A stretch of 53,075 nucleotides of DNA from Bacteroidales bacterium (GTDB taxonomy: Bacteria > Bacteroidota > Bacteroidia > Bacteroidales > F082). The notes under the pieces were generated by a model. It saw nothing but the letters and a program-made list of their open reading frames with translations, ran no database searches and had not been told where the DNA came from. Position numbers and translations under genes: made by a program. Positions 22,474 to 38,807 of the stretch are shown piece by piece (position 1 is the first letter of the stretch; every line of letters starts with the position of its first letter). Where the stretch lies: contig JAEETH010000018.1 in assembly GCA_016290215.1 (NCBI GenBank), positions 1 to 53,075 on the forward strand, written 5' to 3'.

Positions 22474-22737
22474 TCAACTATTTTTTCTCTTCTTCCCCAA
22501 CAGGTAAGCACCACCCAAGACGGAGAGCAAAGCAATGCCGCTGCCCAAGGGGGCATAATCTTCCTCGGGCGCCTCTTCGGCTTGGTCGAAGTCCCTTTCG
22601 TGGATAGGAATAATCAATCCGATATCTTCCCACTGGCCATCACGTTCCTTATCCAAGTCATTCTGGGTCATGAACACCTGCGATTGGAGTGGCATTGACA
22701 GCAGCACTGCTGCGGTCATCAGTATAAGTGTCTTCTT
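22474..22737 (-). CDS. Small secreted protein with C-terminal PLGSG-hydrophobic-basic tail (partner 2)
   Basis: Not a known family that I recognise. The 87 residues have three parts: signal peptide MKKTLILMTAAVLLSMPLQS, an acidic middle (QVFMTQNDLDKERDG... QAEEAPEEDY), and a C-terminal tail APLGSG, then a hydrophobic stretch IALLSVLGGAYLLG and basic KKRKNS. Such a motif-hydrophobic-basic tail is the layout of exosortase/sortase substrates. It is the last gene of a four-gene run, 42 bases behind the 2010-residue protein. An upstream ATG at 22761 would add MKHNNKN; the MKK start is preferred. It resembles the protein at 28829-29098 in layout, in QVF after the signal peptide, and in the tail. 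Confidence 0.8.
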   Translation of the reverse strand, partial: KKTLILMTAAVLLSMPLQSQVFMTQNDLDKERDGQWEDIGLIIPIHERDFDQAEEAPEEDYAPLGSGIALLSVLGGAYLLGKKRKNS

Positions 22738-22779
22738 CATATTTTTATTGTTGTGTTTCATTTTTTCTATGTTTTTGGG

Positions 22780-25700
22780 TTATTTACTTATGACCATTCT
22801 CTGTACTCTGCTCTGCATGCCTTCCGTCAGGCGAAGCATGTAGACGCCGTTGGCGACATTGGGCAGCATTACTGTGCTCTGCACGCCATGCAGTTCGCGG
22901 CTCATCACTAAGCGGCCGTTCACGTCGAACACCTGGAGCACGCCTTCGCCGTTAACCACCATCTCATCGCCCATCATGAAGGCGAAGGTTGGGGCAGCCT
23001 CGGCTTCGGTGTCCTCCTCAATGCCTGTGTAGCCAAACACCAACTTGAAGCGGCTTGCATAGTCCGAGGTGCTTGAGCTGAACTTGTACTCGCTCTCGCT
23101 CAGGCAGTCCACGTTGGCTCCCGTAATGTTGTCGATGAGGTGCAGGTAGCTGAACTCGCCGTTTTGGGTGTCCCAGCGCAGCGTATACTCGGTGTCCTCG
23201 GCTGTCTCGAAGCGGATGCCCACTTCTGTGATTCCAGATTGCGTGTAGGCTATTGCCCAGTCCTCGTCGTTGTAGTGGCACCAAATCTTCCCATTGCCGG
23301 TGCGCAGCCCCTTCATCAGAGGTGCTCCGCCGCAGTCGGGGCGTCCCAGTTCTATGGTGACTCTGTCACCGTTGCCGCTCGCCTCCTTCACGTAAAGGTT
23401 CACCAACGGATAATTTGGACGCTCACCGTCGCGGAACTTCACGCTTTCTGCCGTCACATTGCGCATCACAGGCTCGAAGGTCGCTGCGGCGTTATCGCGG
23501 TCTCTCAGCAACACAAAGAAGCCCTGATGGGGATAGATGAAGCGGCCTGCATAAGCGGGATTGTTGGATGCATCGTACGAGAAGGTCACGTAGTCTTGCG
23601 AATCCTCGTCGATTACCGTGTAGCTCGCCGTTTCTGGGGTGTTCCAAATGGCATCCTCAGCGATAGTGCTGGAGTTGGCTACAGCAAACGCGTTGAAGTC
23701 GAGATAGGCTTGGTAAGGATTGCCGATGAGGTTGTAGCCATGGCGCGGCACGCCTGCAGTCTGCGTAAGGTTATTGAACTCCACGCTGCCATTGTTCAGC
23801 GTACCGTAGCACTGCAGGAAGGTCTCCTCGCGAGTGGCAGCGAAATAGCCCTTGCCAGGGAACATACTTGGCTCGTTACTGTAAGTAATCTGCCATGTAT
23901 GGTCGTCGATATGCCAGTGGCTTGCGCTGTTGCGCTTGAAGTTGATCCAGTGGTACTGCGGCTCGTCGTATGAGTAGAAATCCCACTCCGTATAGTAGTT
24001 GCCTCCAACGGTGGCACTGTTGTCAGCTTCACTATATTCCGTACCGAAGCGGTGGCTCGGGAAGTAGCCGTGTTTCGGGTCGTTCTTCGGGTAGAAGCGA
24101 TAGTAAGGCATCCCGTCAGGATGACCGTAGCTGAACTCGAATTGATTTTCATTGGTGCTGTAGTTGATACCAATGGGTGCCTGGGTCAACGGGCTTGAGA
24201 TCATGTGCCAGTCGGTGGCGTCGGTCATGCCTTCAGAAGCTACACCGCCTTGCGGGTTGGCGCCGTTCACACCGGCTGAGTTGTCAAGCGTGATGCCTAC
24301 ATAAGCATTCAACAAATTATGGTTGATAAGAGCAACGTACTCAGCAATGTAGAGCTTTGATTCGGCATTCACATTAGTGCCTTGCACATTGCCATTGTTG
24401 CGATACATCCATATAGCCTCATCAGCTGCGGTGTAGTTCACCAACAAAGTGTCGATGGGGCGGTAGTAAAGGTACGGGTCGCCTTGCTGGGCAGCCACGG
24501 CGTCAGCCGATGGCATCTTCAGTATCGGGAAGTCGTTATTCAGCGGCTTTAGGTCGTTGCTCTCATGCCATGGACGGTCCCACTTCGTGTAGGTCATGTC
24601 TTCGCTGCTCATCTCGTTCACCCAGTTGTTCAAGGCGATGAGCATCTGCTTATCGACATCTTCTCCTTCGGGTACATAGCCGTTGTCGCTATCAGCCAGC
24701 GACACCTGCGTGTCGCGGTGGCAGTAGAGGTAGGGCAGGAAGCTATCGCCGTAGTTGCCGTGGCCCGTGGGGGCAGTGCCTGCCGCCTTGTAGTTGGTCA
24801 TGCCAGCAGGGGCATAGCAGTAGTTCACCTCGCCATCGTTGTTACCTACTAGGATGCCGAAGTTGCCGCTTGGAGCTTCACCGCGCAAGCGGGCGTAGCA
24901 ATTCTCCACCGTACCGGCGTTGATGGCTACCAGGCCACCTGAATACTTGTTGGTGTCCTTGCTGTTGAACAGGGAGTTGGCGAAGCTGTTATAGAGGTTG
25001 CCGCCAGCGAGTTCGGCGACCAGGCCGCCCATCCTGCCGCCCGTCATGTCGGCGACGCCGATGGACGAGTGCAATGTGCCGGCAGTCTGTTTGCCCACCA
25101 AGCCGCCAATGAGCGTCTCGGCGCTCTGCGAAATCAGCTTAGCCTGCACCTCGCTGTTGCACAATACACCACCCTCATTCTCACCGACCAGGCCGCCCAA
25201 AATCAAGCTGCCGTTGTTGTCGGTGTAGTATTCCATGCCGTGCACGAACACGTCCTGAACAAGGCCACCAGTGACATAACCGAACAGGCCGTAGTCAACG
25301 ACGCCGTTCTCGCCCTGGCCGTACACCATGCCATTTACGCCAGTGATAAGGTGACCATTGCCGTTGAACGTGCCGTTAAACGGTTTCGGGGTCACGCCAC
25401 TGACGCCCCTGAAGCCAATCGGCACCCAACCGAATTCCTTCATGTCGACGTCAGCCTCGAGGTTGACAACGAGGTCGGCGCTGGTGTGGGGATCCGAGCC
25501 GTTCAGGCCGTTGACGTAGCTGATGAGCCAGGCTAAGCCTTCCTTGTTTCTGATGGTGACGGTGTTGCCGTCGACGGTGAAGCCATCATCGGGCACGTCG
25601 TCAAGGCTCCTCACTGCCTCCGGCCAGAAGCCGTAGAGGTAGACATGATCGGGGTCGAAGGCCTCAGGCCAGCCGGTGTAGTGCACCGACAGATAGTGAT

Positions 25701-28700
25701 CCGTGTCGTCGAAAAGACGCGTGTTCAAGTCATGTTCCGGACCAGTGGTGAAGCGGTCGAGGTAATCCCAGCTCGTATCCGAACGCTCGCAATAGATGAC
25801 TGGCACGTGGTTGCGTGGCACACTGAAGCCCACATGCGACTCGGCACCAATGCCGTTCTCAATGACGGTAATTACATCGCGGTGGATGTCGCTTGTATAG
25901 GGATTAGCAATGGGTTCGGGAAGATATATATTGTTACGCGTCGTGTTGTTGCATTCGTAGGTCTCGGGGCTGTTCGTCGTGAAGGCGAAGTTGTCCTCAG
26001 CCAAGATAGAGGTCTCGGTCTTGGAGGCCTCACCCACAACGACCGTGCCTCTCAAATAGACACCGCCGCCCTTCATGCCCGTAGGCACGTGGTTACGGCT
26101 CAAAACGGCATTGCCCTTTAGGTAGAGTATGCCTTCGTCGTTGACGTACATGCCGCCGCCGGCTTGGCTGGCGTAGTTGTAGTTGACGTTACCGTCGGTG
26201 AACACTACGGAACCACGGTTGGCGTAAATGCCGCCGCCGTTTACAGCAGTGTTGTATTGCATATAGCTCAGATCGTTGCCTTCCTTGGTGATAAGCACGG
26301 TGGCATCAAGGCCGTTGCTGTAGATGCCTCCGCCATCGACAGTGGCGTTGTTGTAGTCAATATGACCACCATTGACGGTGATGTCGCCACCAGCGGAGTA
26401 AATGCCTCCGCCGAATCTGGCACTGTTGGCATAAGTGGCATTCTCGCCACCAATCTTGGCACCGCCCAACAATATGCAGGTGCCGCCTTCCATATAGATA
26501 CCGCCGCCGTAGCCTTCCGTAGCGGTGTTACCGCTGATGCTACCGCCAGCGAGCGTGGCAATGCCGTCGCCCATGTAAAGACCGCCACCGTAGCTCGCGT
26601 TGGCCGTGGTGCTGTTGCCCTGAGCCGTCGTGCCGCCGATGACGCCGCCACTCATGTCGAAGTTGCCGCCGCCCACGAACACACCGCCGCCGCGGTTTTT
26701 GGCCATGTTGCCGCTGATGGCGGCATCATCACCGCTGACAGTGATGAGACCGTTGCCTAAGTATAAGCCGCCGCCGTCGTTGTTAGTAGCCGTGTTCGTC
26801 TGCATCTTGGCGTTGGTGTAAGTCACAGTGCCATTGGCCATGTAGATGCCACCGCCTGAGGTGGTGGCTGTATTGCTCGTGATGTTGGTAGCTTCATCCT
26901 GGATGATGAGCAGGCCTTGGTTGACATAGGCACCACCGCCGTTGACAGCCGTGTTATTAGCAATTGTGGCGCCACCCATAATAAAAGTGGTGTCGGAAGT
27001 ACTGGAGGTGTTCACATAAAAGCCGCCGCCGTTGTTGTCTGCATCGTTGTAGGCGATGGTACCGCCTTGCACGGCACACCTGCCACCGATAATGTAGAAG
27101 CCTCCTCCATCTTGCGCAGCCTCGTTGTGGTTGGTCTTGTATTCCTCTGGGCTGGAGTAGGGCACCAAAGCCGTGCCGTCCATGCCTATGGTACCACCTG
27201 TCATGGTAAAGAAACCTCCAGCAAGATAGATGCCTGCACCGTGTTTTTCAGCACTGTTGCCAAAAATCTGCGTGGTGCCGCTCACGTTCACATAACAGTT
27301 GCTTATCTTGTCGCTTTCGAAGTCATTTTTGATGTAAAATGCTCCGCCGCATCCCGTATTGTCATCGGAACTTGTTCCATTATAAGCATTGTTTTGGTAA
27401 ATCTCACCTCCGGAAATGTCAATGGTCAACGTTCCAAAATTGGTTGTATAGTCGATATCATTAATATTGGATTTAATAATACAAAGACCTCCTCCGAATT
27501 CAATGTCTTCATCTCCGGAATTGCTGCCGCTATCAGTATAATTGCCGAAAATTTTCGCTCCTGGTTTGATTCTGATGTTACGGACATACGGTCCACTATC
27601 TTTGTTGTTGAATCTGGCTATATAGGGAGCACCGTCCACGATATAAATGCCTCCACCATTGGGAGCATGGTTACCGTTGATTTCACCGCCTTCGATGTCG
27701 AGGTTGAAGTGAGCAGTAACAGCATTGCCATCAGGATCATACGCGACATCCGGTGATGACTCATAGGTCAAGAATATACCACCACCAAATTTTCCTGCGC
27801 TGTTATTGCATACCCTCACCGAATCGGTGATGGTCAGATTATATCCTTCTCCTAAATACTGAGACATACCTCCAGAATAGGGGCTCATTCTGATGCCACC
27901 GCCTTCATTGGTTGCATAATTGTCATGGATATAAGCCGAACTGATGTTCATAATGGCGCAGTTGTAGATGCCACCATTATTGTTTATGGATGTGTTGTAG
28001 GCTATTTCAGTATCGCCATAAATGTCGCAACGCGAATCCGTACGTCCACCCGCGTTCCAGTGGATGGCACCACCTTCGGTTATATTATGGAAAAACTTAC
28101 AGTCTTTCATTTTAAGACTCGATCTCGTGGCTCCATTGGTACGGACACATGCGCCCCAAGGGTCAACGCCATGGGTTACCTCATTATATTGGAAGGTTAC
28201 ATTCTGTAAGGTCGTTCTGTGATAATCAGAGCCTTCCATGAAAAACGCGCTGCCACCATAACAGCCTTGGATCGTGCAATTCGTAATCTCACAATTATAA
28301 CTTGACGTGGTAGACTTATTCTCAAGATCGATAAAGCCGGTTTCATTTGGGTGATAGAAATTCTGGACCGTAACATTATTCATGGTCAAGTGGCCGTTAC
28401 ACCAGATAGCTCTACCGTAATTTGAAGGTGTAGTTGTAAAACCGGAGGTGGCATCGTTGGGCGTATTGTACACCGCTCCACCGTCGATGGTAATGGTATA
28501 GTCACCTCCATCTATGTCAATGTTACACCTATTATCAACATTATTTGCGGTTTCGCAGAACATCCAACCATCAAAACCGGATCTGTGAATGGTGTAGTTT
28601 CCATTGGTTCTAATGGTTAGGGTCTTCCACTGAGCGACCTTGATAGACCCCTTTAGGTAAACATCGCCAGTAAGGATTACTTCCGTATTGGAGGAAATCG

Positions 28701-28812
28701 TCTGTCCGTTGACATTTCCACTCCAACTGACACGCGTCTGTGCTTGTAGTATGGGCATGACTCCCATTAATGCAAGGACTAGTAAAAACTTTAGTTTTCG
28801 AATTGTCTTCAT
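22780..28812 (-). CDS. Giant beta-helix/GLUG surface protein with T9SS type A tail (copy 2)
   Basis: A 2010-residue exported protein. Signal peptide to about residue 25 (ends LQAQ). Residues ~100-950 are a right-handed beta-helix built of polymorphic-outer-membrane-protein-like repeats (NTATxxGGGIYx, GGGLYxGxGxxT..G..I..N.A). Residues ~1115-1340 carry KEGLAWLISYVNGLN, GTFNGNGHLITGVNG and GLUG-like repeats (GGLVGENEGGVLCNSE, GGLVAINAGTVENCYA). The region ~1500-1800 (DWHMISSPLTQAPIG, GHGYNLIGNPYQAYLDFN-like) is typical of T9SS cargo, and the last ~75 residues (VVNGEGVLQVFDVNGRLV, ending QRMVISK) are the sorting domain. It starts 16 bases after the first small gene. It is clearly paralogous to the giant gene at 29099. 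Probable adhesin or surface coat; target unknown. Confidence 0.9.
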   Translation of the reverse strand: MKTIRKLKFLLVLALMGVMPILQAQTRVSWSGNVNGQTISSNTEVILTGDVYLKGSIKVAQWKTLTIRTNGNYTIHRSGFDGWMFCETANNVDNRCNIDIDGGDYTITIDGGAVYNTPNDATSGFTTTPSNYGRAIWCNGHLTMNNVTVQNFYHPNETGFIDLENKSTTSSYNCEITNCTIQGCYGGSAFFMEGSDYHRTTLQNVTFQYNEVTHGVDPWGACVRTNGATRSSLKMKDCKFFHNITEGGAIHWNAGGRTDSRCDIYGDTEIAYNTSINNNGGIYNCAIMNISSAYIHDNYATNEGGGIRMSPYSGGMSQYLGEGYNLTITDSVRVCNNSAGKFGGGIFLTYESSPDVAYDPDGNAVTAHFNLDIEGGEINGNHAPNGGGIYIVDGAPYIARFNNKDSGPYVRNIRIKPGAKIFGNYTDSGSNSGDEDIEFGGGLCIIKSNINDIDYTTNFGTLTIDISGGEIYQNNAYNGTSSDDNTGCGGAFYIKNDFESDKISNCYVNVSGTTQIFGNSAEKHGAGIYLAGGFFTMTGGTIGMDGTALVPYSSPEEYKTNHNEAAQDGGGFYIIGGRCAVQGGTIAYNDADNNGGGFYVNTSSTSDTTFIMGGATIANNTAVNGGGAYVNQGLLIIQDEATNITSNTATTSGGGIYMANGTVTYTNAKMQTNTATNNDGGGLYLGNGLITVSGDDAAISGNMAKNRGGGVFVGGGNFDMSGGVIGGTTAQGNSTTANASYGGGLYMGDGIATLAGGSISGNTATEGYGGGIYMEGGTCILLGGAKIGGENATYANSARFGGGIYSAGGDITVNGGHIDYNNATVDGGGIYSNGLDATVLITKEGNDLSYMQYNTAVNGGGIYANRGSVVFTDGNVNYNYASQAGGGMYVNDEGILYLKGNAVLSRNHVPTGMKGGGVYLRGTVVVGEASKTETSILAEDNFAFTTNSPETYECNNTTRNNIYLPEPIANPYTSDIHRDVITVIENGIGAESHVGFSVPRNHVPVIYCERSDTSWDYLDRFTTGPEHDLNTRLFDDTDHYLSVHYTGWPEAFDPDHVYLYGFWPEAVRSLDDVPDDGFTVDGNTVTIRNKEGLAWLISYVNGLNGSDPHTSADLVVNLEADVDMKEFGWVPIGFRGVSGVTPKPFNGTFNGNGHLITGVNGMVYGQGENGVVDYGLFGYVTGGLVQDVFVHGMEYYTDNNGSLILGGLVGENEGGVLCNSEVQAKLISQSAETLIGGLVGKQTAGTLHSSIGVADMTGGRMGGLVAELAGGNLYNSFANSLFNSKDTNKYSGGLVAINAGTVENCYARLRGEAPSGNFGILVGNNDGEVNYCYAPAGMTNYKAAGTAPTGHGNYGDSFLPYLYCHRDTQVSLADSDNGYVPEGEDVDKQMLIALNNWVNEMSSEDMTYTKWDRPWHESNDLKPLNNDFPILKMPSADAVAAQQGDPYLYYRPIDTLLVNYTAADEAIWMYRNNGNVQGTNVNAESKLYIAEYVALINHNLLNAYVGITLDNSAGVNGANPQGGVASEGMTDATDWHMISSPLTQAPIGINYSTNENQFEFSYGHPDGMPYYRFYPKNDPKHGYFPSHRFGTEYSEADNSATVGGNYYTEWDFYSYDEPQYHWINFKRNSASHWHIDDHTWQITYSNEPSMFPGKGYFAATREETFLQCYGTLNNGSVEFNNLTQTAGVPRHGYNLIGNPYQAYLDFNAFAVANSSTIAEDAIWNTPETASYTVIDEDSQDYVTFSYDASNNPAYAGRFIYPHQGFFVLLRDRDNAAATFEPVMRNVTAESVKFRDGERPNYPLVNLYVKEASGNGDRVTIELGRPDCGGAPLMKGLRTGNGKIWCHYNDEDWAIAYTQSGITEVGIRFETAEDTEYTLRWDTQNGEFSYLHLIDNITGANVDCLSESEYKFSSSTSDYASRFKLVFGYTGIEEDTEAEAAPTFAFMMGDEMVVNGEGVLQVFDVNGRLVMSRELHGVQSTVMLPNVANGVYMLRLTEGMQSRVQRMVISK

Positions 28813-28828
28813 TTTTTTATAATTTTAA

Positions 28829-29098
28829 TTATTTGTTTCTTGCTTGACTTTCTTTGTTCCGTTTGCCCAACAAGTAGACGCTACCCAATGCCGTGAGCAA
28901 GAGCAGGCCGCCGCCTAAAGGCACCCAGTTGGTCTGGTCATCGGGGCTGCCGTGGAGAATCGTGTTGTTCCACTCGCCGTTGCCGAAGACGTTTCTGTAC
29001 TGGTTCTCATCTTCCTCCATGATGAACACCTGGGCGCGCATCGGTGCCGCCAAGGTGAGGAGTAAGGTGAGTATGAGTAATATCTTTTTCATGGTCAT
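28829..29098 (-). CDS. Small secreted protein with C-terminal PLGGG-hydrophobic-basic tail (partner 1)
   Basis: Same layout as the protein at 22474-22737: signal peptide (MKKILLILTLLLTLAAPMRA), QVFIMEEDENQ and a short polar/acidic middle, then NWVPLGGG, the hydrophobic LLLLTALGSVYLLG and basic KRNKESQARNK. VPLGGG plus a hydrophobic helix plus basic residues recalls the VPxP/VPLPA-type sorting tails cut by exosortases; this exact motif is not one I can assign to a named family. Its ATG follows directly on the TAA of the upstream giant gene (TAA-ATG), so translation is probably coupled. The internal ATG at 29092 would give the same signal peptide. Confidence 0.82.
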   Translation of the reverse strand: MTMKKILLILTLLLTLAAPMRAQVFIMEEDENQYRNVFGNGEWNNTILHGSPDDQTNWVPLGGGLLLLTALGSVYLLGKRNKESQARNK

Positions 29099-32000
29099 TT
29101 AGTCCAATATGATTTTCTGTGTTCTTGTTCCGTTTTCAGTGATAAGGCGCAACACGTAGAGTCCTGCCGGAATGTCGGGCAATGCCACTGTGCTTTGCGT
29201 ATCGTTTATATTGTAATTGGTCAGCATCCTGCCGTTCAGGTCGATCAGTTGCATGATGCCCGTGCCGTTCACCACGAGTTCACCGTTCATGATAAAGGCG
29301 AAAGCCGTGTCGGTCCCTAAGCCTGTCGAAGGGCCGTCCTCTCCATTTTCATCGATGCCCGTGTAGTCGAACATCAGGCGGAAGCGGCTGTTGTAGTCGG
29401 AGGCGTGTGCAGTGAATTTGTATTCGCTCTTGCTCAGGCAATCGATGTCGGTGCCCATTATATTATCAATAAGGTGCAGGTAGCTGAACTCACCGTTCTG
29501 CGTGTTCCATGTCATTGTGTATTCGCCGTCCTCGTCACAGGCGAAGCGGATATTGGCATATTCGAGTCCAGGCTGCGTGAACACGAGGGCGTAGTCCTCG
29601 TCCTCGTAGCGGCACCACAGGCTGCCCTTGCCAGTGCGCCATGCGTCCTGCTTCAAGGCACCGCCCTTGTCGGGACGGCCTAGCTCCACCGTCACGATGT
29701 CGCGGTTGCCGTAGCCGTCGGTGGCCATCAAGTTGACCAAGGGATAGTCGGGCTGGCTGTCATCCCTGAAGTCACCCGTCCAGCTACCTTCCAGCGTCGT
29801 GGTGCGCATCGCATTGCAGAATCTAGCGCTGCCATTCTTGTCGACATCAATCATGAAGCCTTGGTGTGGGTGCAGGTAGCGTGAGGCTTGTTCCGTGTTC
29901 TTGGACTGACTCATGGTATAAATTACATAGTCCTGCTTGTCCTCATCCATTATGATGTAGAACGGATCCCTTCCCTCGTTCCATAGCGTGGCGTTCTCTG
30001 CGTCCGTGGCAAACTTGTTGAAGTCTAAGTAGCTCTGGTAGGGGTTGCCCAAGAGGTTGTGGCCCTCACGTGTCGTCCAGGCGATTTCGGGCGTATAGGA
30101 AACAGGGACAGAGAGGAAGTCATCGTTTTCACCGCTGTTGGTGTTCAACGTGCCGTAGCCTTGCAGATAGCCTTCGTCCTTCAGGGCCACCATGTAGCCG
30201 CGGCCCGGCACAAATTCGGTATCGTTGGTGTAGGGATAGATATGTGTGTCGGGGTAGTCCTCATGCCAGTGGCTCGCGCTGTTGCGCTTCAGGTTAATCC
30301 AGTGGTAGTCGGGCTCATGGTAGGCGTAGAGATCCCAATCGAAGTAGTAGTTGTTGTTGCTGAAGTCGGTTATTGGGAAGTAGCCATTGACGGCATTCGA
30401 AGCTGTGAAGTTGGCTTGCCACGTGGGATAGTGGTATGCCTCATAGAGGTCTTGATCGCCATACACCAGTCCTATGGGTGCATCAGCCAAGGCGCTCGAG
30501 AAGAAGTGCCAATCAATGGCATCGGGCGGGTTGATATGGAAACTCGGGTTAGCACCGCCAGTTCCAGCCGTGTTGTCGATGGTGATACCCACATGGGCCT
30601 TGATGGTGCTGGTATGCATCATCACCACATCCTCGTGGATGTAAAGCTCTGTGGCTTTGCCGCTATTGCTCAAAGAAGAGGTGACGTCAGCCGAGGGACT
30701 CTGGTAAAGAAAGATGTTGCCTATGTTGGCTGAAACGTATTCGTGGAACTTGGCGTTGAAATCGGCGTCATATTCTAACAGGATGTTATCCTTGGAACCC
30801 ACGCAAACATAATTCGAATAGTTGTGTATCGGGTAGTCGTCATTGATGGGGCTGGCGCAGGTACGCATCCATTTGGAATAAGTATTACTATTGCCCACCC
30901 ATTTGTTGAGCGTGGCGAGCAGGCCTTTCAGCCCGTTTCTGTCCAAAGCGCCGTTGACAATGTTGTCATTGTTGCTGTTGGTGGTCATCTGGTTGTCGGC
31001 ATGCTTATATAAATAAGGTATGGAAGTGGGACCGTAGGTTGTGCATTTATTGTCAGCTGCCGTACCGTTCTTTACGTATGTAGCACCATAATTATTGACG
31101 GGCATGTAGCAATAGGTGATGGTGCCACTGTTGTTTTGTCCTGCTATCCAGCCAAAGTAGGTATCAGAAGGGTTGGAAGTGTTTTGAAGGCGCGAATAGC
31201 AGTTCTCGATGCGACCGGCATTGACGCCGACCAGTCCGCCCATGTATTTATTGCTGCCACTTTGTGCCGTAAAGAGCGCATTAGCAAAGCTGTTGTAGAG
31301 GTTGCCGCCCGAAGTCAATTCGCCCACGATGCCGCCCATCTGGTATCCTGTCATCTTGGGCATGGCAGCCGTCGAGTGAATGGTGCCGCTGGTAAGCTTG
31401 CCCACCAAGCCGCCCATCGTGGTGTTGGCCATGGTGCTCACCATGGTAGCATCGGCGATGCAGTTGTAGATACTAGTGCTGCCCTTGGCTTCGTTGACGA
31501 TGGAGCCCATCACGTAGGCATCGCTGCCCGTCTGGCCGTGCACGTCAAGCTCCACACCATGGAGGAACACATCATGGATAGTGGCGCCGTCCGTAGTGCC
31601 GAACATGCCTAAACCCCGGCCCGTGCCGCCAACTAACAAGTCGCCCAGATAGCTGCAATAGATGTTAGATATGGTATGTCCGTTGCCATTGAAGGTGCCC
31701 TTGAACGTTTTCGGCGCATCCGACGCGTTCATGCCGATAGGCACCCAGATGTGGGCCTTCATGTCAACGTCCGCGGTGAGGGTGACCGTTTTTCCGCTCA
31801 TGTCGTGAGCATCACCCTCCACGCTATTCAGACCATTTACGTAAGAGATGAGCCAAGCCAACCCTTCTTTTGTGCTGATGGTTACGTTGCCTGAACCGTC
31901 AACGGAGAATCCTGTTGCTGGTTGGCTTGTCACCGCCTGCACCCAAGTGTCGGCAGAGAGGTAGATAAAATTGGGATAATAGCCGGCAGATTGGTTGTCG

Positions 32001-35000
32001 GCGTAGTATTTTTGTGTGTATCGGTCGCTGTCTTCAAAAATAACGTTTGAATTTATGAGCGTGGAGGACAAATAACTTGCCGTTTGGCAGTAGATGACCG
32101 GCACGAAATTGTGGGGCACGCTGAAGCCAATGCTTGAGTTATTGAGGTCGAGTCCGTTATTGACCACGGTGATAACAGTAGGCCAAGAGTCAGGAGTGGT
32201 TGGTGTATCGGTAGGATTGGGCAAGTAGATGTTGTTGCGCGTGTTGGCACCGCCCTCCTCATATTCGTAACTGTTGCCGGCATAGTTGGTGGACACGTTG
32301 ATGGCATCGCTGGAGCTATTGCCAGCCTGCACGGTACCCAGCAAGTACACACCACCACCCAATTTCCCGTATGGCACATGGTTGCCCGCAAGGGTAGTTG
32401 TGCCCGTCAGGTTGAGCATGCCAGTGGAAGGGATGTAGAGGCCGCCTCCCTTTTCTGCAGCATAGTTGTTGTTGATCGTGGAGTTATTGACGGTTACTAC
32501 ACCTCCTTCAGCATAGATGCCACCACCATCGGTAGAGGCTTGGTTGCTTGAAATATCAGCGTTGTTGAGGTTGACGTTTCCGCCGCCAGCGTAAAGACCG
32601 CCACCAGCACCCGTAGTGGATTCGTTGTTGGTAAGGTTCACAGTGGTGTTTGCGAGAGTGTAGGAGATAATAATGTTGTCGACATAAAAAGAGTCATCAT
32701 TTCTGTCGTCTTTCCAGTCCTTTTTGTATGTCCATCTAAAGGTATGGTAACCAGCATTTACAGCGTAGGAATAATCAATCCATCCACCATCACCAGAAAT
32801 CTCGAACTGTTGTACATCATCAATATAGAAATAACCATAGTCGTAGTTGGTTTCCGACGAAATCCTTGCCCGGAAACTTATGGTTCCGCCTCCTTCGAAG
32901 AAAATAGTAGAGGAAATATTTGAATAAGACCAATTATTATTTGATCCAAAAGTTACCCCACCGTTTCCGCTCTTCATACAGTAGGAATCGCCATTGGGAT
33001 TGCCGTCTGTCGTAACAAACCAAGGATAGGTGGCATCGTTGGTCCATACACCTTGGCTGAGGTCGCCTGTCTTAAAGTCAATTGTATCATTCACATTGAC
33101 ATCCACATTACCGCTGTGCACATAAAGGCCGCCGCCCTGGTTGGTTGCCGTGTTGTAGCTCACCGTGGCACCGTTGTATAAGGCTGTGCGTCCGTTGTTA
33201 GACGGATCCACGTAGAGGCCGCCGCCATTGTTGCTTGCCGTATTGTGGTGGATGTTGGTGGCTGCCGAGGCAATCACCAAAGTGCCGCTCGCCACGTAGG
33301 CGCCAGCACCGTCCACCGCTGTATTGTTGTTAATGTTGGTGGTGGCACTGCTACTGTTGATATTAGTGGCGGTACTCGAGCCAGGGTCTACATAGAAGCC
33401 TCCGCCGTTGCGGTCAGCGTCATTGTAGGAAATGGTGCCGCCCTGAATGGAGCACGAGCCGCCCTTGATGTAAAAGCCGCCGCCGTCTTGTGAAGCCACG
33501 TTGTGGTTGGTCTTGCCCAAAGTCGTGCCGTCCTTGCCTATGGTACCTCCTGTCATGGTGAAGTTACCGCCATTAAGATAGATGCCTGCACCGTTGTTTT
33601 CGGCGGAATTGCCATACAATTGTACCGTGCCACTCACGTTCACATTGCAGTTGCTTGTCTTGCCGCTTGCGAAATCATTCATGATGAAAAACGCCCCACC
33701 GCATCCCGTATTGGCATCGCTACCCGAACCATTATAAGCGGTGTTTTGGTAAATCTCTCCACCAGACATGTCTACAGTCAGCGTTCCGAAATCGTCGGTA
33801 TAGGTAATATTGTCATTATTGTTTTTCACAATACCAAAGGCACCTCCATGTTCGTTGTCGCTACTTCCTGTATTGGCTCCTGCCCAAGTGTAGTTGCCGT
33901 ATATCTTTCCACCTGTAATCTCCACGTTCCTTATGTATTCTCCACTCCATTTATTATTATACTTCACCTTTTTGGGAGCAAAGTCGCGAATACAAATGCC
34001 CCCTCCCACGGGTGCATAGTTATTGTAAATTTCACCCCCTGTAACCTGAAGATGGAAATGGGCATCGATGGCATTGCCTGATGTATTATAACCCACATCG
34101 GCAGACGGACCGAACTCCAAACAAATACCCCCTCCATAACCACCGGCTCGGTTGTTGTACACCTTCACCGAATCTGTAATGGTCAAAGAATAGCCCTCTC
34201 CTGTATAGCCAGCAGTGCCACCAACGTAGGTACTCATACGGATGCCCCCACCATCAAGAGCGGCTATATTGTCGTGGATATCGGCTGATGAGATGTTCAT
34301 ATTGGCGCAGTTGTAGACACCACCAGTATTGCCTATACATTCGTTGTAGGCTATTTCAGTGTTGCCATAGATGTTGCACACCGTAGTCGCACGTCCTAAT
34401 GCGTTCCAGTGGATGGCACCGGCTTGGACCTTGTTATGGAGCAATTTGCAATCTTTTATGGTAAGACTCGACCTCACAGAACCATTGGTGCGGATACATG
34501 CCCCATAAGGGTCCTCTCCATGGGTTGCATCATTATATTGAAAGGTTACATTCTTTAAGATTGCATTATGATTATCTTGAGACTCCATGTAAAACATGCT
34601 GCCACCATAATTGCCCTGGATGGTGCAATTCGTAAGCGTGCAATTATAAGTGGATGCATCATACCTAAGATCAAGATCGATAAAACCAGATTCATTTGGT
34701 CGATAAAAATTCTGGACCACAACATTATTCAAAGTTAAACCACCGTTACACCAAATGGCTCTACCTGTTTTAGGTGAATTTGTCAAACCAGAGGTGGCAT
34801 CGTTGGGCGTACTATACACCGCTCCACCGTCAAGGGTAATGCTATAGGCACCTCCATCCATCTGAAGGTTAGGCCTGGCATCATCGCCATTCGATTTAAA
34901 AAACCATTCGCCGCTAAAGTTAGACGCCCTTCTGATGGTATAATCTCCAGTGGTCGTTATTTTAAGCGTTGTACCAGTGTTCATATTTATCGGCCCTGTC

Positions 35001-35185
35001 AAGTACACATCACCTGTAATTCTTACATTATATACCGTGTTGGCAGTAAGAGTCCTCCCATTAACAGTACCAGACCAATCCTCTCGAGTTTGCGCTAACG
35101 CCAATGGCATCGTACCCAGCAGGGTCAATAATATAATAAGATGTCGCTTTTTTGTCTTAGTAATATGTTTGTATTCTCCACTCAT
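29099..35185 (-). CDS. Giant beta-helix/GLUG surface protein with T9SS type A tail (copy 1)
   Basis: From the preferred start the protein has 2028 residues; an ATG at 35284 would add 33 residues that bury the signal peptide. The signal region TKKRHLIILLTLLGTMPLALAQ ends at about residue 32. The first ~450 residues closely follow the copy at 22780. A beta-helix of GGGIY/GGGLY repeats runs from ~60 to 1000. Unlike copy 2, residues ~693-848 hold an inserted jelly-roll-like domain (FEGGGTISFRARISSE, DYGYFYIDD, AGYHTFRWTYKKD, DSFYVDNIIISY). GLUG-like repeats lie at ~1250-1340 (MGGLVGVNAGRIENCYS). The T9SS tail ends IPAGLYVLRLITENG...QKIILD. A short repeat word contributes PSTGLGT before the tail. 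Probable surface adhesin; ligand unknown. Confidence 0.9.
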   Translation of the reverse strand: MSGEYKHITKTKKRHLIILLTLLGTMPLALAQTREDWSGTVNGRTLTANTVYNVRITGDVYLTGPINMNTGTTLKITTTGDYTIRRASNFSGEWFFKSNGDDARPNLQMDGGAYSITLDGGAVYSTPNDATSGLTNSPKTGRAIWCNGGLTLNNVVVQNFYRPNESGFIDLDLRYDASTYNCTLTNCTIQGNYGGSMFYMESQDNHNAILKNVTFQYNDATHGEDPYGACIRTNGSVRSSLTIKDCKLLHNKVQAGAIHWNALGRATTVCNIYGNTEIAYNECIGNTGGVYNCANMNISSADIHDNIAALDGGGIRMSTYVGGTAGYTGEGYSLTITDSVKVYNNRAGGYGGGICLEFGPSADVGYNTSGNAIDAHFHLQVTGGEIYNNYAPVGGGICIRDFAPKKVKYNNKWSGEYIRNVEITGGKIYGNYTWAGANTGSSDNEHGGAFGIVKNNNDNITYTDDFGTLTVDMSGGEIYQNTAYNGSGSDANTGCGGAFFIMNDFASGKTSNCNVNVSGTVQLYGNSAENNGAGIYLNGGNFTMTGGTIGKDGTTLGKTNHNVASQDGGGFYIKGGSCSIQGGTISYNDADRNGGGFYVDPGSSTATNINSSSATTNINNNTAVDGAGAYVASGTLVIASAATNIHHNTASNNGGGLYVDPSNNGRTALYNGATVSYNTATNQGGGLYVHSGNVDVNVNDTIDFKTGDLSQGVWTNDATYPWFVTTDGNPNGDSYCMKSGNGGVTFGSNNNWSYSNISSTIFFEGGGTISFRARISSETNYDYGYFYIDDVQQFEISGDGGWIDYSYAVNAGYHTFRWTYKKDWKDDRNDDSFYVDNIIISYTLANTTVNLTNNESTTGAGGGLYAGGGNVNLNNADISSNQASTDGGGIYAEGGVVTVNNSTINNNYAAEKGGGLYIPSTGMLNLTGTTTLAGNHVPYGKLGGGVYLLGTVQAGNSSSDAINVSTNYAGNSYEYEEGGANTRNNIYLPNPTDTPTTPDSWPTVITVVNNGLDLNNSSIGFSVPHNFVPVIYCQTASYLSSTLINSNVIFEDSDRYTQKYYADNQSAGYYPNFIYLSADTWVQAVTSQPATGFSVDGSGNVTISTKEGLAWLISYVNGLNSVEGDAHDMSGKTVTLTADVDMKAHIWVPIGMNASDAPKTFKGTFNGNGHTISNIYCSYLGDLLVGGTGRGLGMFGTTDGATIHDVFLHGVELDVHGQTGSDAYVMGSIVNEAKGSTSIYNCIADATMVSTMANTTMGGLVGKLTSGTIHSTAAMPKMTGYQMGGIVGELTSGGNLYNSFANALFTAQSGSNKYMGGLVGVNAGRIENCYSRLQNTSNPSDTYFGWIAGQNNSGTITYCYMPVNNYGATYVKNGTAADNKCTTYGPTSIPYLYKHADNQMTTNSNNDNIVNGALDRNGLKGLLATLNKWVGNSNTYSKWMRTCASPINDDYPIHNYSNYVCVGSKDNILLEYDADFNAKFHEYVSANIGNIFLYQSPSADVTSSLSNSGKATELYIHEDVVMMHTSTIKAHVGITIDNTAGTGGANPSFHINPPDAIDWHFFSSALADAPIGLVYGDQDLYEAYHYPTWQANFTASNAVNGYFPITDFSNNNYYFDWDLYAYHEPDYHWINLKRNSASHWHEDYPDTHIYPYTNDTEFVPGRGYMVALKDEGYLQGYGTLNTNSGENDDFLSVPVSYTPEIAWTTREGHNLLGNPYQSYLDFNKFATDAENATLWNEGRDPFYIIMDEDKQDYVIYTMSQSKNTEQASRYLHPHQGFMIDVDKNGSARFCNAMRTTTLEGSWTGDFRDDSQPDYPLVNLMATDGYGNRDIVTVELGRPDKGGALKQDAWRTGKGSLWCRYEDEDYALVFTQPGLEYANIRFACDEDGEYTMTWNTQNGEFSYLHLIDNIMGTDIDCLSKSEYKFTAHASDYNSRFRLMFDYTGIDENGEDGPSTGLGTDTAFAFIMNGELVVNGTGIMQLIDLNGRMLTNYNINDTQSTVALPDIPAGLYVLRLITENGTRTQKIILD
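29312..29335. repeat. Dispersed 24-bp repeat word inside the giant gene
   Basis: GGTCCCTAAGC...GAAGGGCC matches the words at 40993, 50476 and 50519 with few changes. It is in frame and encodes GPSTGLGT, just before the sorting domain. Confidence 0.75.
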
Positions 35186-35367
35186 TCTGTTTAGCCAATG
35201 CACAATATGCCCCTTTTCCTGCAAGATAAGGTGCAGAAAACGACCGACATGGAAGCTATCAAAGCTTTGTATCTCCTTTGGCATCAGTTATTTATATTTC
35301 CATTCAATCCATTAATATAGTCATTCATGCCGTGCAATACACATCACGACACAATACAATTCGGTTG

Positions 35368-35375
35368 CAAAAATA
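35368..35375 (-). promoter_or_regulatory. -7 box for the giant/small four-gene operon
   Basis: TATTTTTG on the minus strand, about 183 bases upstream of the preferred giant-gene start. If used, it leaves a long untranslated leader. No other -7 box was seen between the four genes, so one transcript of nearly 13 kb is likely. Confidence 0.4.
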
Positions 35376-35579
35376 TTGCTTTTTTACGATATAACCACTA
35401 TGTTATGCGATATTTTTTTAAAAATATTGCAATTTTTTCACCGTTTTTTTTCTTACAAAATGGAAAGAATTTTCAATCGGATGAACTGCAACAATTCGTG
35501 CCGCAATAAAAACACAGTGCTTTTGGAGGCGAAAAAAGACACTTTTTTTGAGGGGGAGGGATACCTTATTAATATATAG

Positions 35580-35880
35580 TTGTTCAGTTGGGAGTTGGCA
35601 GTTGTTCAGTTGGAAGTTGTTCAGTTTACAGTTAATAGTTTGCAGTTGTCGCTTTGCGTCATTGCGAGGAGGAACGACGAAGCAATCCAGTGAATCAGTT
35701 GTTCAGTTTGCAGTTGTTCAGTTTGCAGTTGTTCAGTTTGCAGTTGTTCAGTTTGCAGTTGTCGCTTTGCGTCATTGAGTCGCTTTGCATCGTCGAATCG
35801 GAGATTTGCGAGGAGGAACGACGAAGCAATCCAGATAGCAGTTGATAGTTGACAGTTAATAGTTTGCAGTTATTAAGTTA
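35580..35880. repeat. Gene-free repeat region: four perfect 15-bp tandem copies and a 29-bp direct repeat
   Basis: GTTCAGTTTGCAGTT is repeated four times exactly at 35701-35760, with looser CAGTT-rich copies around it. A 29-bp word beginning TTGCGAGGAGGAACGACGAA occurs at 35662-35690 and 35806-35834, and GTCGCTTTGCGTCATT at 35648 and 35761. In one frame the word reads CEEERRSNP, a common repeat-derived pseudo-peptide. No gene is credible here. Bases 35376-35579 are AT-rich without clear signals. Confidence 0.88.
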
Positions 35881-35893
35881 CCATGATCGGTTT

Positions 35894-35981
35894 GGGCGAA
35901 ATCTATGCATTTTTAGGTAGATTTCGCCCGAGATATTGACTTTTGGGGCGAAATCTATGCGATTTTGGGTAGATTTCGCCC
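35894..35981. repeat. Twin hairpins behind mscS
   Basis: Two copies, spaced 52 bases, of a perfect 12-bp stem GGGCGAAATCTA / TAGATTTCGCCC with a 12-base loop (35894-35929 and 35946-35981). They lie 5 bases past the mscS stop and could stabilise or end its transcript, although no U run follows. Confidence 0.85.
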
Positions 35982-35986
35982 GAGAG

Positions 35987-36892
35987 TTACTTCATGTGAA
36001 CATCCACTTGCGGGAACGGGATATTCAATCCTTCCTGAGCGAAGGCCTTGTAGACCTTTTCGTTCATGCTGAAAAACACAGGCCAGTAGTCAGCGGAGTT
36101 GACCCAAGCGCGCACGGTGATGTCGACCGAGCTGCTGTTGAGTTTACCCAATTCAATAAAAGGTTCGGGCGATTTCAGGATGCTTTGGTTTTCGTCAATC
36201 AGTCGACGCAACACGGTTTTTGCCTTGTCGTAATCGTCGCCATAAGCGATGGAAAACACCCAGTCGACGCGCCTCGTGCCTTGCTTTGAGTAATTGGTCA
36301 TCACACCCGTGGCAAGAGGGCCGTTGGGCAAGATGACCTCCTTGTTGTCGGTGGTCAGCAGATGTGTGTTGAAGATTTGGATCTCGCTCACCACGCCTTC
36401 CATGCCTTGCGCCGAGATGAAATCACCCACCTTGAAGGGTCGGAACATGATGATAAGCACGCCACCGGCAAAATTCTGCAACGTGCCACCCAACGACATG
36501 CCCACGGCCAAGCCAGCCGAGGCCAACAAGGCCACCAACGACGAGGTGTTGATGCCCAAAATGCCAATGATGGCGATAATCAGGAGGAAATAAAGCAGCA
36601 CCGAGACCAAATGCGACAAGAAACTATGCAAGGTGGCATCGCCATGGCGGCTCATCAATCCATTGGCCATCCATCTCTGAATCAGCTTGATAATCCATCG
36701 GCCCAAAAGGAAGACCACAACCGCAGCCAAAATCTTGAGCCCAAGCGGGATGAGATAAGTTTTCGCCAAATCAGGCAACCAATCCGAAACGGGAGTGGAA
36801 GCCAACTTTTTCACACCATCCACCATGCTATTGACCGCAGTAGTGTCTTGGATGGTCTCAGTTACTTGTTCAACAATGGTATCGTTTTCCAT
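35987..36892 (-). CDS. mscS: MscS family mechanosensitive ion channel
   Basis: A 301-residue inner-membrane channel that opens under osmotic downshock. Three hydrophobic segments lie at about residues 45-150: LIPLGLKILAAVVVFLLGRWI, VSVLLYFLLIIAIIGILGI, and the pore helix SLVALLASAGLAVGMSLGGTLQNFAGGVLI with the Ala/Gly packing pattern of MscS TM3. The beta domain (FKVGDFISAQGMEGVVSEIQIFNTHL) and C-terminal vestibule follow. The ATG giving MENDTIVEQ is chosen; the 27-residue longer frame would cross the promoter. Divergent from the exosortase gene. Confidence 0.95.
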   Translation of the reverse strand: MENDTIVEQVTETIQDTTAVNSMVDGVKKLASTPVSDWLPDLAKTYLIPLGLKILAAVVVFLLGRWIIKLIQRWMANGLMSRHGDATLHSFLSHLVSVLLYFLLIIAIIGILGINTSSLVALLASAGLAVGMSLGGTLQNFAGGVLIIMFRPFKVGDFISAQGMEGVVSEIQIFNTHLLTTDNKEVILPNGPLATGVMTNYSKQGTRRVDWVFSIAYGDDYDKAKTVLRRLIDENQSILKSPEPFIELGKLNSSSVDITVRAWVNSADYWPVFFSMNEKVYKAFAQEGLNIPFPQVDVHMK

Positions 36893-36914
36893 AATTCCGA
36901 AAAAATTTGGATGC

Positions 36915-36922
36915 AAAGGTAA
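36915..36922 (-). promoter_or_regulatory. -7 box for mscS
   Basis: TACCTTTG on the minus strand, 23 bases before the mscS ATG at 36892. It supports the shorter start. Confidence 0.5.
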
Positions 36923-36965
36923 GGATAATTCATTAATTATGTAATTTAGCCCCCAAATTTTACTT

Positions 36966-37565
36966 ATGGACATTCAAAGCATCAAGGCATACTGCAAGGA
37001 TCCCCAAAACCGTAGCACCGTCAATGTAGGGCTGTTTATTTTATTGATAATCAGCTTCCATTTCCTGTATTTGGGATGGCAAGCCTTAGGGTATTGGCCT
37101 ATAGGAAAATTAGTTTACAGCCTTATGGTTTGGTCGGTCGACATGGTTTACAGCCAATCCTGCTGGGTGCTTGACCACATTTTCCACATTGATATCACCA
37201 CAGTAAGCGAGCAAAGACTCATCGCCACACCCAATAAAGAAGGCGGTTGGGCGCGGGTTATCATCGCCCCCGAATGTGCAAGCCTGAAGCAATGGATGCA
37301 CTGGCTCTTCCTCATGATCCTCTTCCCTGGCCCATGGAAACACAAGTTGTGGTACATCCCCATGGGCTTGGTCATCATCGAATGGACCAATGTCATAAGG
37401 ATTTGCGGTGTGTTGATGATGCAGATTCCGTGGCCCCACAGTTTCCACCTTGCCCACGATTACATCTTCAAGTTGTTCTTCTACTTCATCATTTTCCTCA
37501 TGTGGATGATTTGGGTGGAGAAATTCTACAATCCGACATTAACAAAAACAAAACAAGATGAATAA
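36966..37565 (+). CDS. Exosortase/archaeosortase family protein
   Basis: A 199-residue multi-pass membrane protein that fits the short Bacteroidota exosortases. Hydrophobic segments lie near 20-45, 45-65, 110-120, 128-140 and 170-185. The predicted catalytic set is in family order: Cys104 in APECASLKQW, Arg145 in TNVIRICGVL, and His164 in HLAHDYIFK. Exosortases cut C-terminal sorting tails at the inner membrane and pass the protein on for surface attachment. Known Bacteroidota exosortases often have no assigned target. Here two candidate tails (at 28829 and 22474) lie on the other strand within 15 kb. It overlaps the ROK kinase gene by 8 bases. Family call is good; subfamily and substrates are inferred. 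Confidence 0.87.
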   Translation: MDIQSIKAYCKDPQNRSTVNVGLFILLIISFHFLYLGWQALGYWPIGKLVYSLMVWSVDMVYSQSCWVLDHIFHIDITTVSEQRLIATPNKEGGWARVIIAPECASLKQWMHWLFLMILFPGPWKHKLWYIPMGLVIIEWTNVIRICGVLMMQIPWPHSFHLAHDYIFKLFFYFIIFLMWMIWVEKFYNPTLTKTKQDE

Positions 37566-38655
37566 CGAACCTATTATCTTCATCCTCGATGCCGGAGGCA
37601 CGGGGTTTAAATTCTCTGCTGTACAAAACTGGCACGAAATCATCGAGCCGTTCACTATCCCTTCGGCTGCGCCCACCCTTGAAGAAGTGCTGCAGAAGCT
37701 CATCACGGGTTTCCATGAGTGCGAGACGCGCTGTGGTGCCAAGGCTTCGGCCATCAGCTTCTGCTTCCCCGGTCCCGCCGACTATCCGAACGGCATCATC
37801 GGCGACTTGGAGAACCTGCCCACCTTCCAAGGTGGTGTCCCGCTGAAAGCCATGCTTGAGAACGAATTTCATGTGCCCGTCTACATCAACAACGACGGCG
37901 ACCTGTTTGCTTACGGCGAGGCCTTGAACGGCTTGCTGCCTGAGGTGAACAAACTGCTTGAGCAGCAACGCAACCCGAAGCGCTACAAGAACCTGTTGGG
38001 AGTCACTCTCGGAACGGGCTTTGGTGGCGGCATAGTTATTAATAAGGTGTTGCTCAACGGCGACAACTCGGCGGGCGGCGAGATCAACCGCCACCGCAAC
38101 CCGCTCTACCCCACCACCAGTGCCGAAGACAGCATCAGCATCCGAGCGGTGCGCCGTGTGTATGGCCGTGAGGCAGGCATCGAATACAACGACACGCCCC
38201 ACCCTTACGACATCTACAAGATTGCCATGGGACAACTGCCTGGCAACAAGGAAGCCGCCATCGCCTCGTGGAACGAATTGGCCACAGCCTTGGCTGACGT
38301 GTTAGCCAATGCCATCTCGCTCATCGACGGCATCATCGTCATCGGCGGCGGCCTATCGGGAGCCTGGCCTGTCTTCATGCCCATGCTCATCAAGAAGATG
38401 AACGAGCCCTTTGCCGGCCTCAGCGACGGACACTCCTTCAGCCGAATGGAGACCGAAGCCTACAACCTGATGGATGCCCAAGACATGATTCGCTTCACCG
38501 AAAAGTCGGGCAAGATGGTCAAAGTGCCCTTCAGTGAACAGTCGGTGTGGTACGACCCGACCAAGCGTGTCGGTGTGGGCATCACCAAACTCGGCACTTC
38601 ATCAGCAGTGGCCATTGGCGCCTATGCATACGCCATCGAGCAGCTGAAAAACTAA
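37558..38655 (+). CDS. ROK family sugar kinase
   Basis: A 365-residue cytosolic kinase, likely acting on glucose, N-acetylglucosamine or a related sugar. N-terminal phosphate loop DAGGTGFKFSAV, CFPGPADYPNGIIGDLENLP, sugar-binding INNDGDLFAYGEAL, LGTGFGGGIVINKVLL and GGEIN follow ROK order, and a C-terminal GGGLSGAWPVF closes the ATP site. The usual ROK zinc motif CxCGxxGCxE after GGEIN is absent (region reads HRNPLYPTTSAED), so it belongs to a zinc-less branch. Its ATG lies inside the end of the exosortase gene, so the two are cotranscribed. Substrate unproven. Confidence 0.88.
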   Translation: MNNEPIIFILDAGGTGFKFSAVQNWHEIIEPFTIPSAAPTLEEVLQKLITGFHECETRCGAKASAISFCFPGPADYPNGIIGDLENLPTFQGGVPLKAMLENEFHVPVYINNDGDLFAYGEALNGLLPEVNKLLEQQRNPKRYKNLLGVTLGTGFGGGIVINKVLLNGDNSAGGEINRHRNPLYPTTSAEDSISIRAVRRVYGREAGIEYNDTPHPYDIYKIAMGQLPGNKEAAIASWNELATALADVLANAISLIDGIIVIGGGLSGAWPVFMPMLIKKMNEPFAGLSDGHSFSRMETEAYNLMDAQDMIRFTEKSGKMVKVPFSEQSVWYDPTKRVGVGITKLGTSSAVAIGAYAYAIEQLKN

Positions 38656-38688
38656 AAAAACTTATCAACATCCATTGTTGATAAAAAC

Positions 38689-38719
38689 AAGCCCCGAAAA
38701 TTGAATTTTTCGGGGCTTT
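38689..38719 (+). terminator. Rho-independent terminator after the ROK kinase
   Basis: AAGCCCCGAAAA / TTTTTCGGGGCTT stem with a 5-6 base loop and T-rich end. A second small palindrome (TTATCAACA / TGTTGATAA, 38662-38684) precedes it. Confidence 0.8.
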
Positions 38720-38807
38720 ATTGATGCATCTTTATTAATTTCGCAAACTGAAAAAGAGCAGACAATTATCTATTGTCTTTGTTTGTAACTATAAAAAAAT
38801 CAGATAG

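Follow-up and report, generated by a model that had tools for sequence, protein, structure and literature searches.

The window analysed here, the whole stretch of 53,075 nucleotides of contig JAEETH010000018.1 from a Bacteroidales bacterium (assembly GCA_016290215.1), carries two tandem gene units on its minus strand and, close by on the plus strand, a gene for an exosortase. Each unit consists of a protein of about 2000 residues with a sorting domain of the type IX secretion system (T9SS), followed by a secreted protein of 88 or 89 residues with a three-part tail (a PLGSG or PLGGG motif, a hydrophobic segment and a basic end). This arrangement had been reported in a first-pass annotation of the sequence, and both units are indeed present. 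Unit 1 comprises the giant P0004 (29099..35284; 2061 amino acids (aa) as called) and the small protein P0002 (28829..29098; 89 aa, PLGGG by sequence and tail model), and unit 2 the giant P0003 (22780..28812; 2010 aa) and the small protein P0001 (22474..22761), in which a signal peptide and a short body precede PLGSG, the hydrophobic segment and a terminal KKRK. From the coordinates, successive genes across both units are separated by 0, 16 and 18 bp. The small proteins had been given as 88–89 residues, which holds for P0002 as it stands, while P0001 has 88 residues only when counted from an internal Met preceding the signal peptide and 95 from its first ATG. The giants are 60% identical over 688 columns of their N-terminal third (BLASTP) and the small proteins 43% identical, with the tail common to both, indicating that the units arose by duplication.

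Profile matches identify both giants as T9SS cargo. They exceed the NCBIfam cut-off of 23 bits for the type A sorting domain (TIGR04183), with scores of 25.5 and 39 bits. Typically, the first part of this domain carries a PNP motif. The match begins at profile position 19 in P0003 (22789..22950) and at 17 in P0004 (29105..29278) and runs to position 71 in both, the PNP part being missing. Ahead of the sorting domain lies a further segment, the RF module, located at 22981..23142 in P0003, immediately before the sorting domain (alignment/model and AlphaFold2), and at 29330..29476 in P0004 (alignment/model). The giants had been described as beta-helix/GLUG proteins, and a long GGG-repeat region is directly visible in the giant sequence, but the GLUG model of Pfam stays below threshold on P0004 (16.0 bits, cut-off 20.5) and the Pfam beta-helix models give no match to either giant at E ≤ 1. 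PDB sequences gave no match to P0003 at E ≤ 0.01. The beta-helix fold is a prediction. As called, P0004 carries about 33 or more surplus residues ahead of its signal peptide (35150–35284), and translation probably begins further inside. Cysteine is absent from the mature parts of P0001 and P0002. Against the loose cut-off of the LPXTG_anchor model (15.9 bits), P0002 scores above (17.5) and P0001 exactly at the limit (15.9); neither tail has an LPXTG motif, and sortase itself was not searched for.

Further copies of the small proteins were first found by searching with P0001 and P0002. A tail-only model (A2), built from 16 tails (11 from this genome and five from exosortase loci of relatives), detects 12 tails in the genome, 10 of which immediately follow a same-strand T9SS gene, a recurrence that indicates more than a chance arrangement. 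One of the other two lies 322 bp behind an AraC-type gene (L142) and one ahead of a lipoprotein-like gene (L143). The genome holds at least 150 matches to the T9SS sorting domain. To represent other genomes, 30 loci were taken, one per genome, each with the best tail match; three were left out because the tail open reading frame (ORF) fell under the 60-aa limit (L076), was not separate (L078) or had no gene upstream (L103). A hidden Markov model scan showed a T9SS match in the same-strand upstream gene at 25 of the 27 readable loci, the exceptions being an upstream gene on the opposite strand (L101) and one without a T9SS match (L080). Over all loci examined there are 72 distinct tail proteins, 65 with a same-strand upstream gene, and 59 of these 65 match TIGR04183. 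Sequence comparison thus shows that the tails do sit directly behind T9SS proteins, as the first-pass annotation had proposed checking.

Sequence divergence of the small-protein body correlates with that of the sorting domain of its partner. In this genome r is 0.68 over 10 pairs; none of 5000 permutations reached this value with the body, and the whole small protein gives p = 0.0008. In G299 r is 0.81 (p = 0.007). With the body, r is 0.86 (p = 0.09) in G314 and 0.27 (p = 0.07) in G245. With the whole small protein, G314 gives r = 0.97 (p = 0.03) and G245 r = 0.45 (p = 0.02). G176 and G093 had too few pairs, and loci lacking an intact upstream T9SS gene (L142, L143, L157, L159, L163, L166, L169) were left out. 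Coevolution of body and sorting domain was not accepted as proof of contact, since duplication of whole units yields the same signal.

The cargo paired with the tails belongs to one subclass, as comparison of the upstream genes shows. Same-strand upstream genes lay at gaps below 260 bp in 63 of 65 cases, and these 63 include two that are not T9SS-like (L080 and L157). P[NS]P is absent from the final 85 aa of all 63, and 57 carry the pattern R-F-x-[LIVM]-x-[FIYVL] shortly ahead of the sorting domain; the pattern is missing from all 12 T9SS proteins of the same loci that were picked as controls for having PNP. The consensus of the RF module is xLxDxxTGxxxDLxxxxxYxFxAxxxDxxxRFxLxF, in which R and F do not vary among the 49 sequences aligned. 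AlphaFold2 (30 sequences, mean pLDDT, the predicted local distance difference test, 83) places the module at the close of a run of beta strands preceding the sorting domain. Foldseek with the predicted fold returned nothing at E ≤ 0.001; its weak matches are to DUF3244 proteins and T9SS sorting domains, and those at E 0.036–0.16 include chains labelled as a NucA substrate (8glk), the mirolase C-terminal domain (8qb1) and PorZ (5m11). Among 30 cargo ends searched against Pfam, no match covers the RF module in more than one member, and only Por_Secre_tail recurs. Within the genome, 16 of 150 scored sorting domains start at profile position 10 or later, and inspection by eye found an adjacent companion for nine of these 16 and for one of the 134 others (p = 1.3e-9). 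Of 40 exosortase genomes, 25 have three or more RF matches, against one of 40 T9SS genomes without exosortase, the 80 genomes scored being 40 of 60, 25 of 30 and 15 of 15 in random draws. Among exosortase genomes without A2 tails, 12 of 25 reach this number (p = 1.3e-5). Seven T9SS proteins of the genome with late-starting, PNP-less sorting domains (L149–L155) have no tail protein adjoining; these may share companions in trans.

The exosortase gene (P0005; 36966..37565, plus strand; 199 aa) lies 1.68 kb upstream of the units. Its product is a member of the exosortase/archaeosortase superfamily (TIGR04178, 56.5 bits, cut-off 23), and Cys104, Arg145 and His164, which we take to be the catalytic residues, are invariant across 17 aligned exosortases. 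The nearest family is XrtX (NF046081), at 92.4 bits against a cut-off of 170, and the XrtF model gives 44 bits against a cut-off of 90. Searches with the P0005 sequence and with the XrtX model each returned P0005 as the sole match in the host genome (assembly of 3.8 Mb, 85% complete). The closest exosortases come from Bacteroidales and Bacteroidia assemblies, many of them titled for rumen or other gut samples. Exosortase loci of 51 relatives were inspected over up to 10 kb per side, leaving out two pattern matches that are not tails (L041, L064). Tails stand beside the exosortase in five of them (L025, L032, L034, L041, L046). The first-pass annotation had linked this exosortase to the units, and the gene does lie close upstream on the other strand, but giants accompany the exosortase in only two of the 51 relatives, and its nearness in the window was rejected as evidence of a link.

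The association of tails with exosortases is instead apparent across genomes. In an order-level sample of 344 genomes (requested at ≥90% completeness, with the host genome added), tails were found in 55, an XrtX-type match in 138 and both in 51. An XrtX match is present in 51 of the 55 tail genomes and in 87 of the 289 others (odds ratio 30, Fisher p = 6e-19), and in every one of the 24 genomes that have at least two tail matches. None of the 344 exceeds the NF046081 cut-off of 170 bits. The second sample, of 70 genomes from the class, gave PID-CTERM (NF046080) matches in 36 of 46 XrtX genomes and in none of 24 without XrtX (p = 3.7e-11), all 36 PID-CTERM genomes having an XrtX match. Tail presence thus follows exosortase presence in both samples, as the first-pass annotation had expected, and tails are not widespread in genomes without the enzyme (four of the 55 tail genomes lack a detected one). 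A hidden common cause in T9SS was considered and rejected: the translocon protein SprA occurs in 325 of 344 genomes, too widely to explain the link. Of these 325, 138 have an exosortase; the remaining 19 genomes have none.

Tail and enzyme genes also adjoin, and sequence comparison brings all three components together. For the order, 30 exosortase loci were compared, each from a different genome and chosen by highest XrtX score, which favours canonical enzymes. A tail protein lies directly upstream of the exosortase in 10, eight by pattern and two by eye (L121, L133); L110, with its tail under an ORF of the other strand, was left out, and in L129 the opposite strand carries a tail-like ORF. 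In three of these loci (L121, L132 and L133, by eye) the tail protein is itself preceded by a gene with a T9SS-like end. The same triad of cargo, tail protein and exosortase is seen in L144–L146, from a set (L144–L148) chosen for having tail and exosortase on one contig and hence serving as examples, not as a sample. The tails of these three triads read APLGSG, APIGSG and TPIDGG, which indicates that PLGSG tails grade into PID tails. In 30 PID loci of the class, the T9SS model is matched by 13 of the 23 same-strand upstream genes, the exosortase is directly downstream in 19, and the full triad is present in eight (L192, L195, L197, L198, L202, L203, L210, L215). All 13 cargo ends lack PNP, and six have the strict RF pattern. 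Most PID genomes of the class (29 of 36) have a single PID match, and in 21 of these 29 the tail ends 39–87 bases before the exosortase match. According to the part of the source available, the case for rhombosortase and GlyGly-CTERM likewise rested on co-distribution and on adjacency in single-target genomes (PMC3237569).

By their sequences, the parts found in the window are a divergent variant of the NCBIfam XrtX and PID-CTERM families, coupled to a subclass of T9SS cargo. These two families appear to be meant as a pair, judging from their neighbouring accessions and the co-occurrence data above. The enzyme shares its superfamily and the positions of Cys, Arg and His with XrtX, and differs in reaching only 92 bits of the required 170. 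The small proteins resemble PID-CTERM in being secreted, mostly 75–100 aa long and equipped with a three-part tail, and the order of cargo, small protein and exosortase also occurs with canonical PID tails. They differ in ending in PLGSG or PLGGG instead of PIDGG, in lacking a Cys-rich body with CWPPPC, and in number, with 12 tails in this genome and one match in most PID genomes of the class (29/36). NF046080 gave no listed match to P0001 or P0002 at E ≤ 10, and its best match in the genome scores 22.9 bits (cut-off 26). If PID-CTERM-like is taken to mean a small secreted protein with a motif, hydrophobic and basic tail in a genome with an XrtX-type enzyme (a working definition of our own, not the NCBIfam text), it applies in 51 of the 55 tail genomes. 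Many canonical PID-CTERM bodies carry CWPPPC just ahead of PIDGG (L190–L218, by eye), a possible disulfide or modification site.

Compared with ordinary T9SS type A cargo, the giants have sorting domains above the cut-off and a predicted fold weakly resembling the NucA substrate, mirolase and PorZ chains, but they lack the first part of the profile with its PNP, carry an RF module ahead and have an exosortase-tail protein behind. A three-part tail is also the hallmark of GlyGly-CTERM/rhombosortase and LPXTG/sortase, and the accessible portion of the GlyGly-CTERM study places the enzyme beside its target in most single-target genomes (PMC3237569); the enzymes of those systems are unrelated to the exosortase and the motifs differ. 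Profile scans of the window proteins and tails gave no GlyGly-CTERM match among those listed, no rhomboid search having been made.

Some tails have a different companion. G245 belongs to the same genus and has six tails at residues 41–63 of ORFs of 561–641 aa, followed in frame by a lipoprotein-type signal peptide and a protein of about 500 residues (L158 4713–6623; L160 6839–8659; L162 4870–6795; L164 6052–7791; L170 8124–9815 and 10302–11987), so that the exosortase-like signal is internal. An unfused form, in which a small tail protein precedes a separate lipoprotein-like gene of about 480–540 residues, is found in the host genome (L143 5407–7259) and in G245 (L157, L166, L169), and at these four loci no T9SS cargo stands ahead of the tail protein. 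A second signal peptide behind the tail would fit a basic end that faces the cytoplasm and a cut on the outer side of the membrane.

Between the units and P0005 in the window lies a gene for an MscS-type channel (35987–36973, minus strand). The usual neighbours of the exosortase in relatives are a ROK kinase (within 300 bp in 27 of 51) and an MscS homologue (27 of 51). The order MscS (minus strand), exosortase, ROK kinase and ribonucleotide reductase gene recurs in close relatives (window 35987–41615; L023–L048, L060). The intergenic region at 35590–35880 contains short repeated words such as cagttgttcagtttg, and the 20-mer gaggaacgacgaagcaatcc has two copies in the window and none in 17 other loci of the genome that were checked.

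These patterns suggest that two surface-export systems, T9SS and the exosortase, work together, and from them we infer the following course, in which cleavage, an acceptor, contact and a cargo-holding role would each have a part. Cargo and small protein would be produced jointly, and Sec would carry each of them across the inner membrane. The small protein would be kept in the inner membrane by its tail, with the basic end in the cytoplasm, until the exosortase (Cys104/Arg145/His164) cuts the motif P-[LIV]-[GD]-x-G and releases a body of about 40–60 residues, the new C-terminus of which it probably joins to an acceptor. The cargo would pass the outer membrane through the T9SS by means of its PNP-less sorting domain, and the processed small protein would associate with it at the surface and contribute to its retention or assembly. 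Trimming of the small proteins by the exosortase is very probable, given their co-occurrence and adjacency. Functional coupling of the small proteins to T9SS cargo is likely, given that a single cargo subclass is selected and that the gene order recurs over the whole class. The first-pass annotation had suggested a part for the small proteins in anchoring or maturing the giants; that they hold or assemble the cargo at the surface may be offered as a guess, and one that could well prove wrong. The account of the small proteins as substrates of an XrtX-like exosortase and as dedicated companions of one T9SS cargo subclass seems to us reasonably likely to be correct.

Several alternatives bear on this account. 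With tail, T9SS and exosortase each common in the group, the units might be chance neighbours spread by lineage-specific duplication; the nearness of the exosortase in the window is itself accidental (2/51 relatives) and T9SS sorting domains number at least 150 in the genome, but the counts already contradict such an origin, with T9SS cargo preceding 10 of the 12 tails of the genome and 25 of 27 readable one-per-genome loci, and co-occurrence at p = 6e-19 and 3.7e-11, leaving it very improbable indeed. The small proteins might instead be uncut, C-terminally anchored proteins of the inner membrane, for example periplasmic helpers of T9SS-bound cargo, while the exosortase acts elsewhere. In both samples nearly all genomes with tails are exosortase genomes, and tail and enzyme genes directly adjoin, which makes this quite improbable; on its side are four tail genomes (G121, G175, G196, G197; 96–99% complete) in which no intact exosortase was detected by NF046081 or by TIGR04178 over its cut-off. 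Three of them (G121, G175, G196) still hold a T9SS–tail pair. G196, which keeps tail–T9SS pairs, also has a weak exosortase match interrupted by several stops (L219; G196:C65:36880-37014), either a decayed exosortase gene or chance; tblastn with 17 exosortases found nothing at E ≤ 0.01.

A further possibility grants that the exosortase processes the small proteins and holds that the operons shared with T9SS cargo reflect joint regulation only, the peptides acting elsewhere in the envelope with neither contact nor joint assembly. Other companions do exist in the lipoproteins, several variant cargos have no adjacent companion, and the correlation between body and sorting domain can arise by duplication of whole units. 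Regulation alone, however, predicts no type of sorting domain, while the upstream genes are of a single subclass (PNP 0/63, RF 57/63) and cargo consistently precedes tail across the order, as it does in 13 of 30 class loci; we consider joint regulation as the whole explanation unlikely.

The account of exosortase substrates serving as cargo companions also has to accommodate a number of observations that weigh against it, beginning with the four exosortase-less tail genomes. Some tails accompany a lipoprotein instead of T9SS cargo, and in 10 of the 30 class PID loci another same-strand gene stands before the small protein. Pairing is not one to one, as the genome has 28 RF matches and 12 tails, and seven of its 16 variant sorting domains stand without a companion beside them. 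Seven of 13 class-level partners lack the strict RF pattern, at least one RF match occurs in 11 of 40 exosortase-less T9SS genomes, and some of the genomes used to build the RF model are among the 15 tail-bearing ones that were scored. A2 tails are missing from 87 exosortase genomes, in which PID-type tails were not searched for. Because the genomes are related, the p-values overstate the number of independent events. In Flavobacterium johnsoniae, finally, the available text of one study gives mutants of FJ0334 and FJ0651, which lie outside T9SS, the phenotype row of xrtF, and has porV and sprA mutants differing from xrtF in one column (PMC10936215).

The same study is the closest experimental parallel in the other direction as well. 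As far as its available text goes, mutants deleted for xrtF or its associated gene share their row of phenotypes with the porU and porZ deletions, biofilm being much reduced and zorbs abolished (PMC10936215). XrtF is a Bacteroidota exosortase of a different family, and the portion consulted describes no gene pairing with T9SS cargo and leaves the exosortase substrates to future research (PMC10936215). The likeness between xrtF and T9SS mutants is suggestive by analogy, not specific. The literature searched, from which most subscription papers fell outside, contained no description of a coupling between T9SS cargo, small tail protein and exosortase, nor of substrates and roles for Bacteroidota exosortases. 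The system had been put forward as undescribed, and this stands for the coupling to T9SS, whereas the enzyme and tail families themselves are already represented in NCBIfam by XrtX (NF046081) and PID-CTERM (NF046080).

It is possible, though we would not call it likely, that exosortase and T9SS form one display pathway of Bacteroidota. PNP-less cargo, often with an RF module, would then depend on a dedicated peptide, processed by the exosortase and delivered separately, that is joined to it outside the cell as surface partner or anchor, and the rumen lineage would have expanded this arrangement to at least 10 pairs run by one enzyme. If true, this would join the exosortase and the T9SS, export systems that have been treated apart, and the recurring order of cargo, tail and exosortase, together with the matching cargo subclass, makes the link between them directly testable on named cargo.

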